This document shows positions 9,934 through 17,145 of a DNA stretch of 64,000 bases, in pieces. The translations under genes were made by a program, and so were the position numbers. Source of the stretch: a virus; IMG/VR virus record IMGVR_UViG_3300042515_001753, positions 169,887 through 233,886 of that record, one strand, 5' to 3'. How positions within the stretch are numbered: position 1 is the stretch's first letter; each line of letters begins with the position of its first letter. Under the pieces are notes generated by a model. That model searched no databases. It had not been told where the DNA came from and saw nothing but the letters and a program-made list of their open reading frames with translations.

Positions 9934-12900
9934 TTACTTAACTCCTTTGAGTTCGTTGATTTCTGCTTTGAGTTCTTTGATTGCCTCAATCAGTAGAGGA
10001 ACAAGTTTTTCGTATTGAACCGTAATGTAGTTAGAATCTACAGGAGCAGGTTTGACTGCTTCTGGAAGAACTACCTGAACTTGTTGTGCAGATACGCCCA
10101 CATAACGAACTAAACCATCAAAACCAAGTGACTGCCCAATCTCATTAAAGTTATATGTAAATCCGCTCAGAGCAAGAACTTTATCTAGAGCATTTTCTAG
10201 TGGTTGAATATTTGTTTTGAGTCTTTCGTCGGAAGCAAAAGCAGTAATATCTCCACTTACAGATAAATTCGTTCCATCAAAAACTAAACTAGATGAAGTG
10301 GTAGCATTATTGGAACCATCCTTAAAGACAACTTGATTGGCAGAACCGAAACTTAAATCGGCGGCAGTAGAAGCAGAAGTCGCATTACCAGATAATGTGG
10401 CAGTAATGGTTCCAGCACTAAAGTTGTTAGAAGCATTACGAGCAACAATAGTTGATGCCGTGTTTGCTGAAGTTGCATTAGAAGTTACAGTAAATGTGGC
10501 AGCACCGGAATTATTAAATGTTGCGGATCCAGATAATCCAGTACCAGAAGTATTAAGTGTTAATAAATTACTAAGAGTACCAACAAATGTAGATGCTGTT
10601 AAAGCATTAGTATTAGCATTATAAGTCAATCCAGAATCAATAAACGGACTTTGATTACCTGTTGATTGATTTGCAACTAATACTATTGAAGTTGTAGTGT
10701 CTGATGATGTAGTAGAGGAAATGTTTATATTATTTGCATTAGTTGCAGTTCCAGTCACATCACCGACTATGTTACCAGTTATATTACCGGTCACATTACC
10801 AGTAATAGTTCCAGTTACATTTAAATTTCCACCTACATTCAGGTTCTGAGCAATACCGACACCACCACTTACAACTAGTGCTCCATTTGCCGTGGTTGTG
10901 GACGGAGTATTAGAACTTACTTTTAATTGTGATTTAATATTTACAGCATTTGTAAACTTAACTTCCTTATTAAATGTAACCGGACCATCAAATTGAGAAA
11001 GAATCGTGCCAGAATTACCACCCTCAACAACAAGACGTTCTTTAACGGTTACTTCATCAAATACGGCACTTAATCTAGATGGGTCTTCACCGGTAACCGT
11101 TGGAATTGGATTATCATATGTAACTTCCTCACCAGTTGATGAAGATGTTTTACGATTACCAATAAAGGAGTCACCATTATTATTCATACCAGTATAAACA
11201 ACAATACCACCAGACCTTTCCTGTGACTGTACCAAGAACTCTTCTCTTTCTGTCAAAGTTACGGTCTGAACCTGAGGCAATCCTGTTGAGTAGTTTCCTG
11301 GACCATATCCAAGATACTCAAAAGTATGCCCCGAAGCTCTAACAATTGAAGGTCTTCTGAATTCAATTGAGATTGGTTTAATCTTTCTGATAAGTGAACC
11401 ACTATCGTGAGCGGTTTGTTTCGTGGATAGAGCACCACGAATCACCGTAATCTCATTTCCTCCACCACCACTCAGAGTGCTACTCGCAACTCTCATAATC
11501 TCTTCATCAATCTGAATATAAGAACCAAGTGGGAATCTCTTGGTGATTGCTGCTGCACTTACAGGGCTTGATACTGCAACTGTGAGAGAAGTGGTGGTAA
11601 TTCCACTAGCGGCAACAAGTGTTTCCTTATCAAATAATGGAATACTTCTGATTCCTAGATTTTCTGCTGTAGAATCAGAACTGGCATTATTTGCAGAAAG
11701 CCCGTGCTTCAGTACATATCCACCATTCACACTCAGAGAAGGTGTAAGTGCCGTAAATGCATTTACACTAACTCTATCTTTTACAATATAATCTCCTCTA
11801 TTATTATTTGAGGAATCAATCACTCTAAATCTATTACCGGCAACTAATCCGTGAGGTGCAGAACAATTAAAGGTACTTATCCCAGACCCAGAAGAATAAC
11901 TGGTGGTTGTAATCCGAACCGAAGGTCCAACGATAAAGGCATATTGATTTGCCGTAACTACAGAGTCTCCTGCTGTCTTGGCAATTGAAATCTGATTGTC
12001 TGCCGAAACTGCCGTAATACGGTGATATGTGTCTGAGGTTGTTCCATCACCCGTAAATTGAACCACATTACCAATTGCCGTTGTAATTCCTGATGTGATA
12101 ATATTAAATCTTGCATTACCATTACCATTACCTATCACAGAGGCATCAAAATATAATGCACCGGCAGAATATCCAGATCCAGAAGAAACAACATCTGCAG
12201 AAATTACCGCTCCACCAGATACCACAACTTTTGCAGTTGCTCCTCTCCAGGTTCCAGTCTGAGAAGTATTGAGAAGTTTGAGGTTTTGATATGTTCCAGA
12301 ATTATAAGATGCACCAGCAACTAAAGTACTGAAGGTTACAATACCGGCAAGACCGTGCTCTCTTGCAAAGGTAATCGTTGCACTTGATGTAGAGTTAGAT
12401 ACTGAGGATACATCAAGACCAACTCCTAGATTTGTGAGTAAGGTATCGGTCGATTCTTTTGTAATACTCTTCTTAAGGTCACTTGTTACGACATCACCAA
12501 TCGGGGACCTCTTTGCAAATGTTTTGGCAGATGTTGGAGTATCATTAACATTATCTCTGTCTAACTGAGGATAAAGGTCAACAACATTCTGACTATACTT
12601 AATGTTTGTGAACTCCGTTGGAATTGCCTTATTGGCACTTAAAGTATAGATATGATAAACACCATCCTGAATACCACTAATGTATGAAGTAATTACTTCG
12701 CTTCTATAATTGTAAAGATTTGATTGTAAGTTATTTCTTTCAAATCTTGGAGATGAGGTTGTTCTATTGGAGGTTACATTTGTGAATAATGCGGGAGTTC
12801 TTGTTGTGGTATGAGTAAAGGTCATATCATCAACAACTGATGCAACCGTAAAGGTTCCGTTATAACCAAGATTATCTTCACCAGTTGTGTTAGTACTGTC

Positions 12901-15854: not shown

Positions 15855-15862
15855 TATTTATT
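15855..15862 (-). promoter_or_regulatory. candidate late promoter
   Basis: AATAAATA on the minus strand, overlapping the HNH stop codon and 21 bp before the ATG at 15834. Confidence 0.5.
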
Positions 15863-16571
15863 TTAACCATTTACGAATAGAATTATCACTAACTCCATAT
15901 TTTTTACCTACAGCAAGATAAGAACTTTCTTTTACTTCTTGTAATAATTGTTCTTTAGAAGGTCTTTCAACTTTTCTTTGGGATTTTGAATAGCAACTAT
16001 TACAAAGACCAGTTTTGCAGTTTGTTTTCAATTCAACCCCACAAGAAGAACATTTATGAATTTTTTTGGTTAGTATTGTTTGGATTTTATTTTTTATTGT
16101 TTGTGAGTTTTTATTTTTCTTATTTTTACCACGATATGTTGGAGTTTTAGCGTGACAATTTGGGCATAAGATTTTTAAATTTTCTAATATATTGTTATAA
16201 TGGTCTCCATCAATATGATCTAATTCTAAAGGTATTGGTTCTTCTAACCATTCACTCAATCCGCAGCATTCACATCTATGATTCTTTAATCCCTCTATAA
16301 TTAATCTTTTTCGCAATTTGTTAGAATTGTACTCATAATTCTTAACAAGGATTTCACTTAATGGTGTTGTATTAAACTTATGAGTTTTTCCCTTTAGATG
16401 TCCTTGACCTGTAAAATGTGAAGTGTCTATTCCATAAAGTTTTTCAAATTTTTTAAATACTCTATAGTTTCCACCTCTTGGAGATAATCCAAGTTTTGTA
16501 AGTGCTTGTGCTATGGAATAACTTTCTTCTACTGCTTTTTTAAATTCTTCTATGCTATATGAATGTCTCAT
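15858..16571 (-). CDS. free-standing HNH homing-type endonuclease
   Basis: A 237-residue protein in four parts: an N-terminal DNA-reading segment (SIAQALTKLGLSPRGGNYRVF); the HNH core with C100/C103, LELDHIDGD (D118, H119), N129-N131 and C136/C139 (CPNCH); a second zinc knuckle (C174, C177, C190, C193); and a C-terminal helix-turn-helix (YLAVGKKYGVSDNSIRKWLK). This layout fits mobile HNH nickases. It is 47 bp downstream of the intron-bearing tRNA and its ATG abuts a hairpin that contains a late promoter. Inference: it spreads the neighbouring intron/tRNA region. Confidence 0.85.
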   Translation of the reverse strand: MRHSYSIEEFKKAVEESYSIAQALTKLGLSPRGGNYRVFKKFEKLYGIDTSHFTGQGHLKGKTHKFNTTPLSEILVKNYEYNSNKLRKRLIIEGLKNHRCECCGLSEWLEEPIPLELDHIDGDHYNNILENLKILCPNCHAKTPTYRGKNKKNKNSQTIKNKIQTILTKKIHKCSSCGVELKTNCKTGLCNSCYSKSQRKVERPSKEQLLQEVKESSYLAVGKKYGVSDNSIRKWLK

Positions 16572-16614
16572 ACTGGTAAACTTATTGTATAGTTATTTAT
16601 ATAAGTTTACCAGT
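16572..16614 (-). promoter_or_regulatory. 13-bp inverted repeat with a late promoter in its loop (HNH leader)
   Basis: Perfect arms at 16572-16584 and 16602-16614 (ACTGGTAAACTTA and its complement) enclose a 17-nt loop. On the minus strand the loop begins TATAAATA (16594-16601), an exact T4 late promoter, and the 3' arm ends at the base before the HNH ATG. Read-through RNA would fold and hide the ribosome site. RNA started at the late promoter (around 16588) lacks the 5' arm and stays open. Confidence 0.8.
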
Positions 16615-16617
16615 TCA

Positions 16618-16888
16618 TACCCGTGAGTGGATTCGAACCACCGCTTGAGAGATTTTCTTACCACTATAGTTTTCACTACCCTTTCGGTTTGTGGTCTGGA
16701 CTATACCTTCATCATACCTTTCGGTTTAGATGTTCCCCGTCTAGTCTCTACACCTTCATCTTACGATGCTTGGCTCGGTATTGCCATTTTACAGGTTTCA
16801 CCGAATTTGAGGAATTGCACTCATAAGGTTTCCCAAATGAGGCTCAATTTTCATAAGTCTCTTGCCTCTTCCGCTGGGCTACACGGGC
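16618..16888 (-). tRNA. tRNA with UAA anticodon, interrupted by a group I intron
   Basis: Exons are 16855-16888 (34 nt) and 16618-16656 (39 nt). Joined, they give exactly 73 nt: acceptor GCCCGTG/CACGGGT, discriminator A73, T8 A9, D arm GCCC/GGC, anticodon stem AGAGA/TCTCT, loop CTTAAAA, variable loop CAAGC and T arm GGTGG-TTCGAAT-CCACT. The intron splits the loop between U34 and A35, the same place as in cyanobacterial and plastid trnL(UAA). The anticodon UAA should read the Leu codon UUA, but the body has a 5-nt variable loop (class I) whereas bacterial tRNA-Leu is class II. CCA is not encoded. Confidence 0.85.
16657..16854 (-). ncRNA. group I (IC3-like) self-splicing intron, 198 nt, no ORF
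   Basis: Starts after a U (P1 U-G wobble with the GAG of ATTGAGCC) and ends in G. Conserved core elements are in order: ATTGAGCC, P2 CTCAT/ATGAG with a GGGAAACC cap, CAAATTCGGTGAAACC, GGCAATACCGAGCCAAGC (Q), GTAGAGACTAGACGG (R), CCGAAAGG (P8 GNRA loop), AAGGTATAGTCC (S), and two further GNRA hairpins near the 3' end. Most closely resembles the cyanobacterial/plastid trnL(UAA) intron (ATTGAGCC, GGAAACC, GGCAAT-CC-GAGCCAA blocks shared). Confidence 0.9.
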
Positions 16889-17033: not shown

Positions 17034-17036
17034 AAT

Positions 17037-17123
17037 ACGAGTGCCTGGATTCGAACCAGGTCAAAGCCGCTAATCTGGCGGAAAGGCGTTATAAGTGCCC
17101 TCTGACTACCAAGTCTCACTCGC
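17037..17123 (-). tRNA. class II tRNA-like gene, anticodon uncertain (UAU if 7-nt loop)
   Basis: 87 nt with acceptor GCGAGTG/CACTCGT, a good T arm (CCTGG-TTCGAAT-CCAGG) and a long variable arm (CCGC-CAGATTA-GCGG) as in Leu/Ser/Tyr tRNAs. The anticodon arm is irregular: a 7-nt loop CTTATAA would give UAU but needs an A-C mismatch closing the stem, otherwise the loop has 9 nt. Position 8 is A instead of the near-universal T. It may be a diverged Leu-type tRNA or a decaying gene. Confidence 0.6.
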
Positions 17124-17125
17124 AT

Positions 17126-17145
17126 AAAAGTTGCCTTGAAGCAAC
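17126..17145 (-). terminator. weak hairpin and T-run before the tRNA cluster
   Basis: GTTGC/GCAAC hairpin (17130-17145) followed on the minus strand by CTTTTA. A second related GTTG/CAAC hairpin is at 17161-17176; both include AAGTTGCCTTGA on the plus strand. It could attenuate transcription after the antitoxin gene. Confidence 0.35.

Follow-up and report, generated by a model that had tools for sequence, protein, structure and literature searches.

The locus described here raises the question of how a group I intron came to reside in a tRNA gene of a phage, and by what means such an intron might move. It lies in the window, i.e. the whole stretch of 64,000 nucleotides that was analysed, which is the final 64 kb of an IMG/VR virus record of 233,886 bases. 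Group I introns of tRNA genes have been described mainly from bacteria and plastids. Those of phages have been described mostly from protein-coding genes (reviewed in PMC3984707), and a literature search, largely of openly accessible papers, turned up no published example from a phage tRNA. The first-pass annotation of this DNA had proposed that a tRNA at 16618-16888 is split by a 198-nt intron of the cyanobacterial trnL type at 16657-16854, that the joined exons make a 73-nt tRNA with all stems paired, and that the phage is a vehicle for an ancient host intron.

The intron itself is recovered exactly as proposed. ARAGORN, when introns were allowed, called a tRNA-Leu(taa) at c[16618,16888] on the minus strand with an intron of 198 nt at 34/35 and joined exons of 73 nt, for which a cloverleaf fold was obtained; a default run called the neighboring tRNA-Met alone and not the split tRNA-Leu. 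The insertion point is thus between U34 and A35 of a tRNA-Leu(UAA) (Table 1). The covariance-model search suggested in the first-pass annotation gave a match to the Rfam family Intron_gpI (RF00028) at 16675-16864 of the minus strand with 64.4 bits (E 1.4e-15, permissive filters), against a gathering score of 50 bits. An Rfam scan of the 64 kb with fast filters missed the element, and it passes the Rfam cut-off in a search of the whole virus record. Its identity as a group I intron is close to certain, and tRNA annotation performed without an intron search will miss phage tRNA genes of this kind.

Table 1. Features of the split tRNA gene and the adjacent endonuclease locus (window positions)
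Feature	Position	Strand	Remarks
tRNA-Leu(UAA) 5' exon	16855..16888	-	34 nt; ends ...GACTT (U34); ARAGORN
Group I intron, IC3-like	16657..16854	-	198 nt, without ORF; conserved 3'-terminal G
tRNA-Leu(UAA) 3' exon	16618..16656	-	39 nt; begins AAAATC; ARAGORN
P1	16843..16857	-	exon CUU (16857-16855) with intron GAG (16845-16843); U.G at splice site; read from sequence
P3	16733..16814	-	16814-16809 with 16738-16733; 100% paired, 5/5 pairs covary
P7	16699..16746	-	16746-16742 with 16703-16699 (GACUA/UAGUC); all positions paired in 28 introns, covariation at one pair
Hairpin ending at HNH start codon	16572..16614	-	arms 16614-16601 and 16585-16572; MFE -16.7 kcal/mol, z -4.9
T4-type late-promoter motif	16594..16601	-	TATAAATA; inside hairpin, 22 bp from HNH ATG
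Free-standing HNH endonuclease gene	15858..16571	-	237 aa, LELDHIDGDHYNN...CPNCHAKT; phrog_10822

A P2-P9 structure was written for the window intron and then counted on 28 phage tRNA-Leu introns. In these, 94.6% of the cells are paired, as against 26-42% for slid versions of the structure; changes on both sides of a pair occur in 252 cells (shuffled mean 82, with none of 500 shuffles as high), and double changes are seen at 30 of the 49 pairs. Chance is hence discarded as an explanation of the covariation in P3-P9. The P3-P7 pairing, which the first-pass annotation had singled out for checking, is complete in all 28 introns, the base of P8 is likewise fully paired (its upper part 85%), and the P3-P7-P8 core that characterizes group I introns, in which P7 forms a pseudoknot with P3, is present in the window intron. 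The GAG segment of P1 is invariant and the terminal intron base is a G in 28/28. As to the subgroup, a profile of 102 bacterial tRNA introns scores the window intron at 139 bits and the psbA introns of the same genome at no more than 34, the P7.1/P7.2 insert is absent, and J7/3, as read from the sequence, comprises only a few nucleotides; the profile score and J7/3, used here in place of subgroup reference models, indicate an IC3-like intron. Such an element very likely splices itself from the phage tRNA precursor.

The same phage genome has three more group I introns outside the window (10114-11479; L001, L002, L004), with scores of 108, 98 and 58 bits. They lie in and beside a split psbA with a PhotoRC-II motif upstream, and a 206-aa ORF between the psbA-region introns resembles another intron endonuclease.

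Far from being an isolated case, tRNA-Leu(UAA) introns are common in phages, and several sit in already published genomes. A pattern made of the intron 3' part and the AAAATC exon start matched at least 120 IMG/VR stretches, and ARAGORN found an intron-bearing tRNA-Leu(UAA) in 60 of the first 80 of these. Across all loci gathered, the junction ACTT|...G|AAAA is seen in 112 of 113 ARAGORN tRNA-Leu introns, a count that is partly built in, as the 3'-exon search pattern fixes some of the junction. The intron also occurs in the phage genomes LR756501 (735 kb) and LR756511 (595 kb) and in Agrobacterium phage Atu_ph07 (490 kb); the word "intron" is absent from the main text of the papers on these genomes (PMC6102473, PMC7162821). 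Natural empty sites are available too: in Synechococcus phage S-SRM01, which among named phages is the closest at this locus, and in S-SKS1, the same small array includes a tRNA-Leu(UAA) free of the intron, and the same small gene and a long tail-fibre gene lie downstream of it. In the window the locus is surrounded by tail fibre and baseplate-type genes, and the carrier is a virus of photosynthetic bacteria. The array has further peculiarities. A tRNA-like gene at 17035-17126 (minus strand) combines a UAU anticodon and an odd D arm with a long variable arm of class II, and it is conserved in both S-SRM01 and S-SKS1; the adjoining tRNA-Leu(UAA) lacks such an arm, although leucine tRNAs are expected to have one. 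S-SRM01 has a different HNH gene in the same array (L005:3213-3632), between the tRNA-Ile-like gene and tRNA-Met, which implies repeated invasion of the array.

A candidate for the agent of mobility lies next to the intron-bearing gene. The HNH gene begins 46 bp downstream of the tRNA-Leu gene, and its product carries the HNH motif LELDHIDGDHYNN and matches the phrog_10822 family with E 5.3e-56; a curated Pfam search with the protein gave no match and a sequence search for related solved structures found none. Homologs are located inside the tRNA-Leu introns of many other phages, as in LR756511, where an HNH protein 55% identical to that of the window is encoded within the intron. Elsewhere they adjoin an intronless tRNA-Leu or one that has an intron, in the latter case downstream of it, upstream of it or in opposed orientation, and on the HNH protein tree the state inside or outside an intron switches at least 11 times. 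Of 79 contigs picked solely for their HNH similarity, 75 show a tRNA gene at a distance of no more than 300 bp, which is Leu(UAA) in 25, and the predicted role of the family is that of homing enzymes specific to tRNA arrays. The precise arrangement seen in the window, with a spacing of 46-48 bp, is repeated in at least 10 related contigs, the tRNA-Leu genes of which are highly divergent, even in variable-arm class.

The family also adjoins phage tRNA-Gln, Trp, Asp, Gly and suppressor-like tRNAs with a CUA anticodon (L144-L211), and is found inside apparent tRNA-Gln introns (L207-L210). The notion that intronic HNH proteins always lack the C-terminal domain was given up: 25 of 31 intronic copies lack it, in a search biased by C-terminal peptide queries. 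An alteration of the target arms in HNH-linked intronless tRNAs was considered too; the arms are intact in 2 of 11 of these tRNAs versus 7 of 13, which is no significant difference (Fisher p 0.10).

Taken together, we think it fairly probable that the small IC3-type ribozyme in the phage tRNA-Leu(UAA) and the HNH protein form a collaborative homing pair under late-promoter regulation. Collaborative homing is known from the psbA intron and the free-standing F-CphI of cyanophage S-PM2, from T3/T7-like phages and from the terL gene of ICP1 (PMC10448857, PMC6083498). Like these phage systems, the window has an ORF-less intron beside a free-standing endonuclease gene, and it combines this tight, recurrent linkage (46 bp) with the natural empty sites of S-SRM01 and S-SKS1; it differs from them in that the target is a tRNA gene and the enzyme, whose cleavage activity is putative, is an HNH protein of another family. 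A partnership of the kind seen with the psbA intron/F-CphI and in ICP1 is likely, with the mini-intron probably mobilized by the neighboring HNH enzyme. From the sequences we infer splicing, the HNH cleavage target, co-transfer and regulation as follows. The tRNA precursor would fold, and the ribozyme with guanosine would cut after U34, at the P1 formed by exon CUU and intron GAG; U34 would then be joined to A35, releasing 198 nt and restoring the 73-nt tRNA. In phages infecting the same cell, the HNH enzyme would most likely cut the intronless tRNA-Leu(UAA) in the anticodon loop or close to it, and repair from the carrier would copy the intron and the HNH gene together. In read-through transcripts HNH expression is probably held back by a hairpin over the start codon, and a late promoter inside that hairpin would permit it. 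The enzyme may cut elsewhere, because its relatives adjoin other tRNAs (Gln, Trp, Asp) and intronless tRNA-Leu.

This last circumstance also lends some credence to the reading that the intron, though it splices, is a passenger with no mobility of its own, and that the HNH protein is an unrelated free-standing homing enzyme which happens to target the tRNA array in the manner of SegB of T4. Consistent with it is one contig (L133:2600-3010) in which an HNH protein 96% identical to that of the window adjoins another tRNA-Leu with a divergent group I intron, best read as inserted one base earlier, at U33/U34 (GGACT|...|TAAAATCC); such a mismatch indicates that intron and HNH are able to travel apart. 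However, relatives of this HNH protein are encoded within the very same intron in many phages, and the pair of intron and HNH recurs in different tRNA-Leu genes, so that we consider the passenger reading unlikely, if the strongest of the alternatives. HNH-independent movement, whether through reverse splicing or through simple recombination of tRNA arrays, is still less probable: the many mini-introns without an ORF and the presence of similar introns in different tRNA-Leu backbones would fit it, but it does not account for the strong HNH linkage. Moreover, two contigs (L153/L154) that share their flanks and HNH gene have dissimilar introns and anticodon arms but matching outer tRNA sequence; this resembles a repair tract, and is as expected if the flanking exon is copied along with the intron.

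The regulatory part of the collaborative homing model draws on the spacer between tRNA and HNH gene, which consists of a hairpin whose 3' arm reaches the start codon. The hairpin is kept in nine relatives with 94% of the cells paired; its covariation is weak, with double changes at 2 pairs, a number reached in 45 of the 500 shuffles. Of the 54 listed minus-strand genes of the window, 9 have ATAAATA 15-27 bp upstream, against 1.5 in shuffles (P 2e-10); an excess so far beyond chance points to a working promoter motif in this phage, which by its sequence appears to be the T4-type late promoter motif, and a gene for a late-promoter regulator is present in S-SRM01. In T4, the start site of homing endonuclease genes is concealed in early transcripts and is freed by a late promoter located inside the hairpin (PMC2988022). 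The design predicted for the window HNH would equal that of these T4 enzymes, with a hairpin over the start region and a late promoter inside, and it shares its tRNA-array location with SegB; SegB, however, is a GIY-YIG enzyme without a linked intron, whereas the window enzyme is an HNH protein with one.

To place the intron among its cellular counterparts, bacterial IC3-type introns were gathered by scanning 84,980 species genomes with a single pattern. Those in tRNA-Leu(UAA) come from Cyanobacteriota, Pseudomonadota, Acidobacteriota, Bacteroidota, Bacillota and others, and further ones occur in bacterial tRNA-Ile/Met(CAU) and tRNA-Arg genes; the AAA, AGA or GAA anticodons printed by ARAGORN for a few bacterial intron tRNAs are probably misplaced by 1-2 bases. 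In the resultant tree (178 introns, 206 columns, careful search) the 35 cyanobacterial tRNA-Leu introns form one clade (100/100) that excludes the window intron, which falls within an 11-member phage clade (99/95). Phage and bacterial introns are interleaved, and the deeper branches are weakly supported. The best identities to the window intron are 95.5% for another phage (L125), 73% for a proteobacterial and 65% for a cyanobacterial tRNA-Leu intron. Profile scores run in the same direction, namely 166 bits for other phages, 127 for the proteobacterial, acidobacterial and Bacteroidota group, 88 for Bacilli, 80 for betaproteobacterial tRNA-Ile(CAU) and 56 for cyanobacteria, a ranking to be taken as a guide given that the training sets are unequal in size and diversity.

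The cyanobacterial trnL type proposed in the first-pass annotation accordingly holds as regards the IC3 kind, the tRNA-Leu(UAA) and the U34/A35 site, and does not extend to membership of the cyanobacterial clade. The blocks cited in its favor, ATTGAGCC, GGAAACC and GAGCCAA, are indeed present, and are found throughout IC3 tRNA introns of many phyla rather than marking one lineage. The window intron has in common with the cyanobacterial/plastid trnL(UAA) intron the small size and the short CUU/GAG P1 as well, but has a different P7-P9 sequence, is phage-borne and is linked to an HNH gene. The IC3 introns in tRNA-Leu(UAA) of Proteobacteria, Acidobacteriota and Bacteroidota, together with the tRNA-Ile(CAU)/Arg types (of the Azoarcus/Agrobacterium kind), have the same core and are its nearest cellular relatives by profile and identity; they differ in residing in cellular genes and are at most 73% identical to it. 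Given the tree and the identity and profile rankings, the window intron appears to stand outside the cyanobacterial trnL lineage, as a cousin sharing the site of the trnL intron rather than a recent capture from a host, and to belong to a lineage circulating among phages. Recent capture of the trnL intron of a cyanobacterial host, with the phage as the vehicle of the ancient intron, would agree with the shared tRNA, site and core blocks, with Synechococcus being the host of the nearest named phage, and with a tree uniting the window clade and the cyanobacterial clade, which is not rejected (AU p 0.53); nevertheless, the well-supported cyanobacterial clade without the window intron, the lower identity (65% against 73% and 95.5%) and the lower score (56 bits against 127 and 166) render it very improbable. 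Equally hard to credit is the idea that the intron is a degenerate remnant in a tRNA pseudogene and no longer splices, as might be imagined from the failure of default tRNA finders and of fast Rfam filtering to detect it, since P1, P3-P9 and the cloverleaf are intact, compensatory changes in relatives preserve the pairings and a 95.5% identical copy exists in another phage.

The cellular introns also bear on the wider history of the trnL intron. The same HNH is found in bacterial trnL introns of Bacillota (L224, L236, L282) and Bacteroidota (L303), a Chloroflexota intron (L326) retains 22 residues of it, and a match in a further bacterial intron (L267) is probably real; these HNH-bearing introns come from MAG contigs, the bins of which may hold phage contamination. 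Long HNH ORFs also gave weak tblastn matches to bacterial introns with KFGET..NPEPS, which were set aside as read-through of the intron core and contain no HNH. The HNH in bacterial trnL introns makes former mobility of the trnL intron through this enzyme testable, and with the linked family there is a specific, testable explanation of how spread among tRNA genes could have been achieved by an intron which in cyanobacteria has no endonuclease gene. More speculatively, phages might be a mobile reservoir of tRNA-Leu(UAA) IC3 introns, and the HNH family the driving force, since lost, of an earlier spread of the trnL intron among bacteria in which the ancestor of the cyanobacterial/plastid intron, now an immobile relic, took part; the interleaving of phage and bacterial introns in the tree, the HNH in Bacillota and Bacteroidota introns and the Chloroflexota remnant lend support to this proposal, which we put forward only tentatively.

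Two further observations concern phage introns of this type at other loci. A 290-nt tRNA-Leu intron (L034:5732-6108, minus strand) contains in its P6 loop a tRNA-like sequence (acceptor GTGGGTG/CACTCAC; T arm CCAG-TTCGATC-CTGG), which ARAGORN does not call at normal thresholds. IC3-like introns are also present in capsid genes of Autographiviridae, namely Pelagibacter phage HTVC120P and relatives (L009:1946-2126 and 2655-2835; L010:1956-2155); their core closely resembles that of the tRNA introns, and their location indicates movement of this type of intron between genes for tRNAs and genes for proteins.
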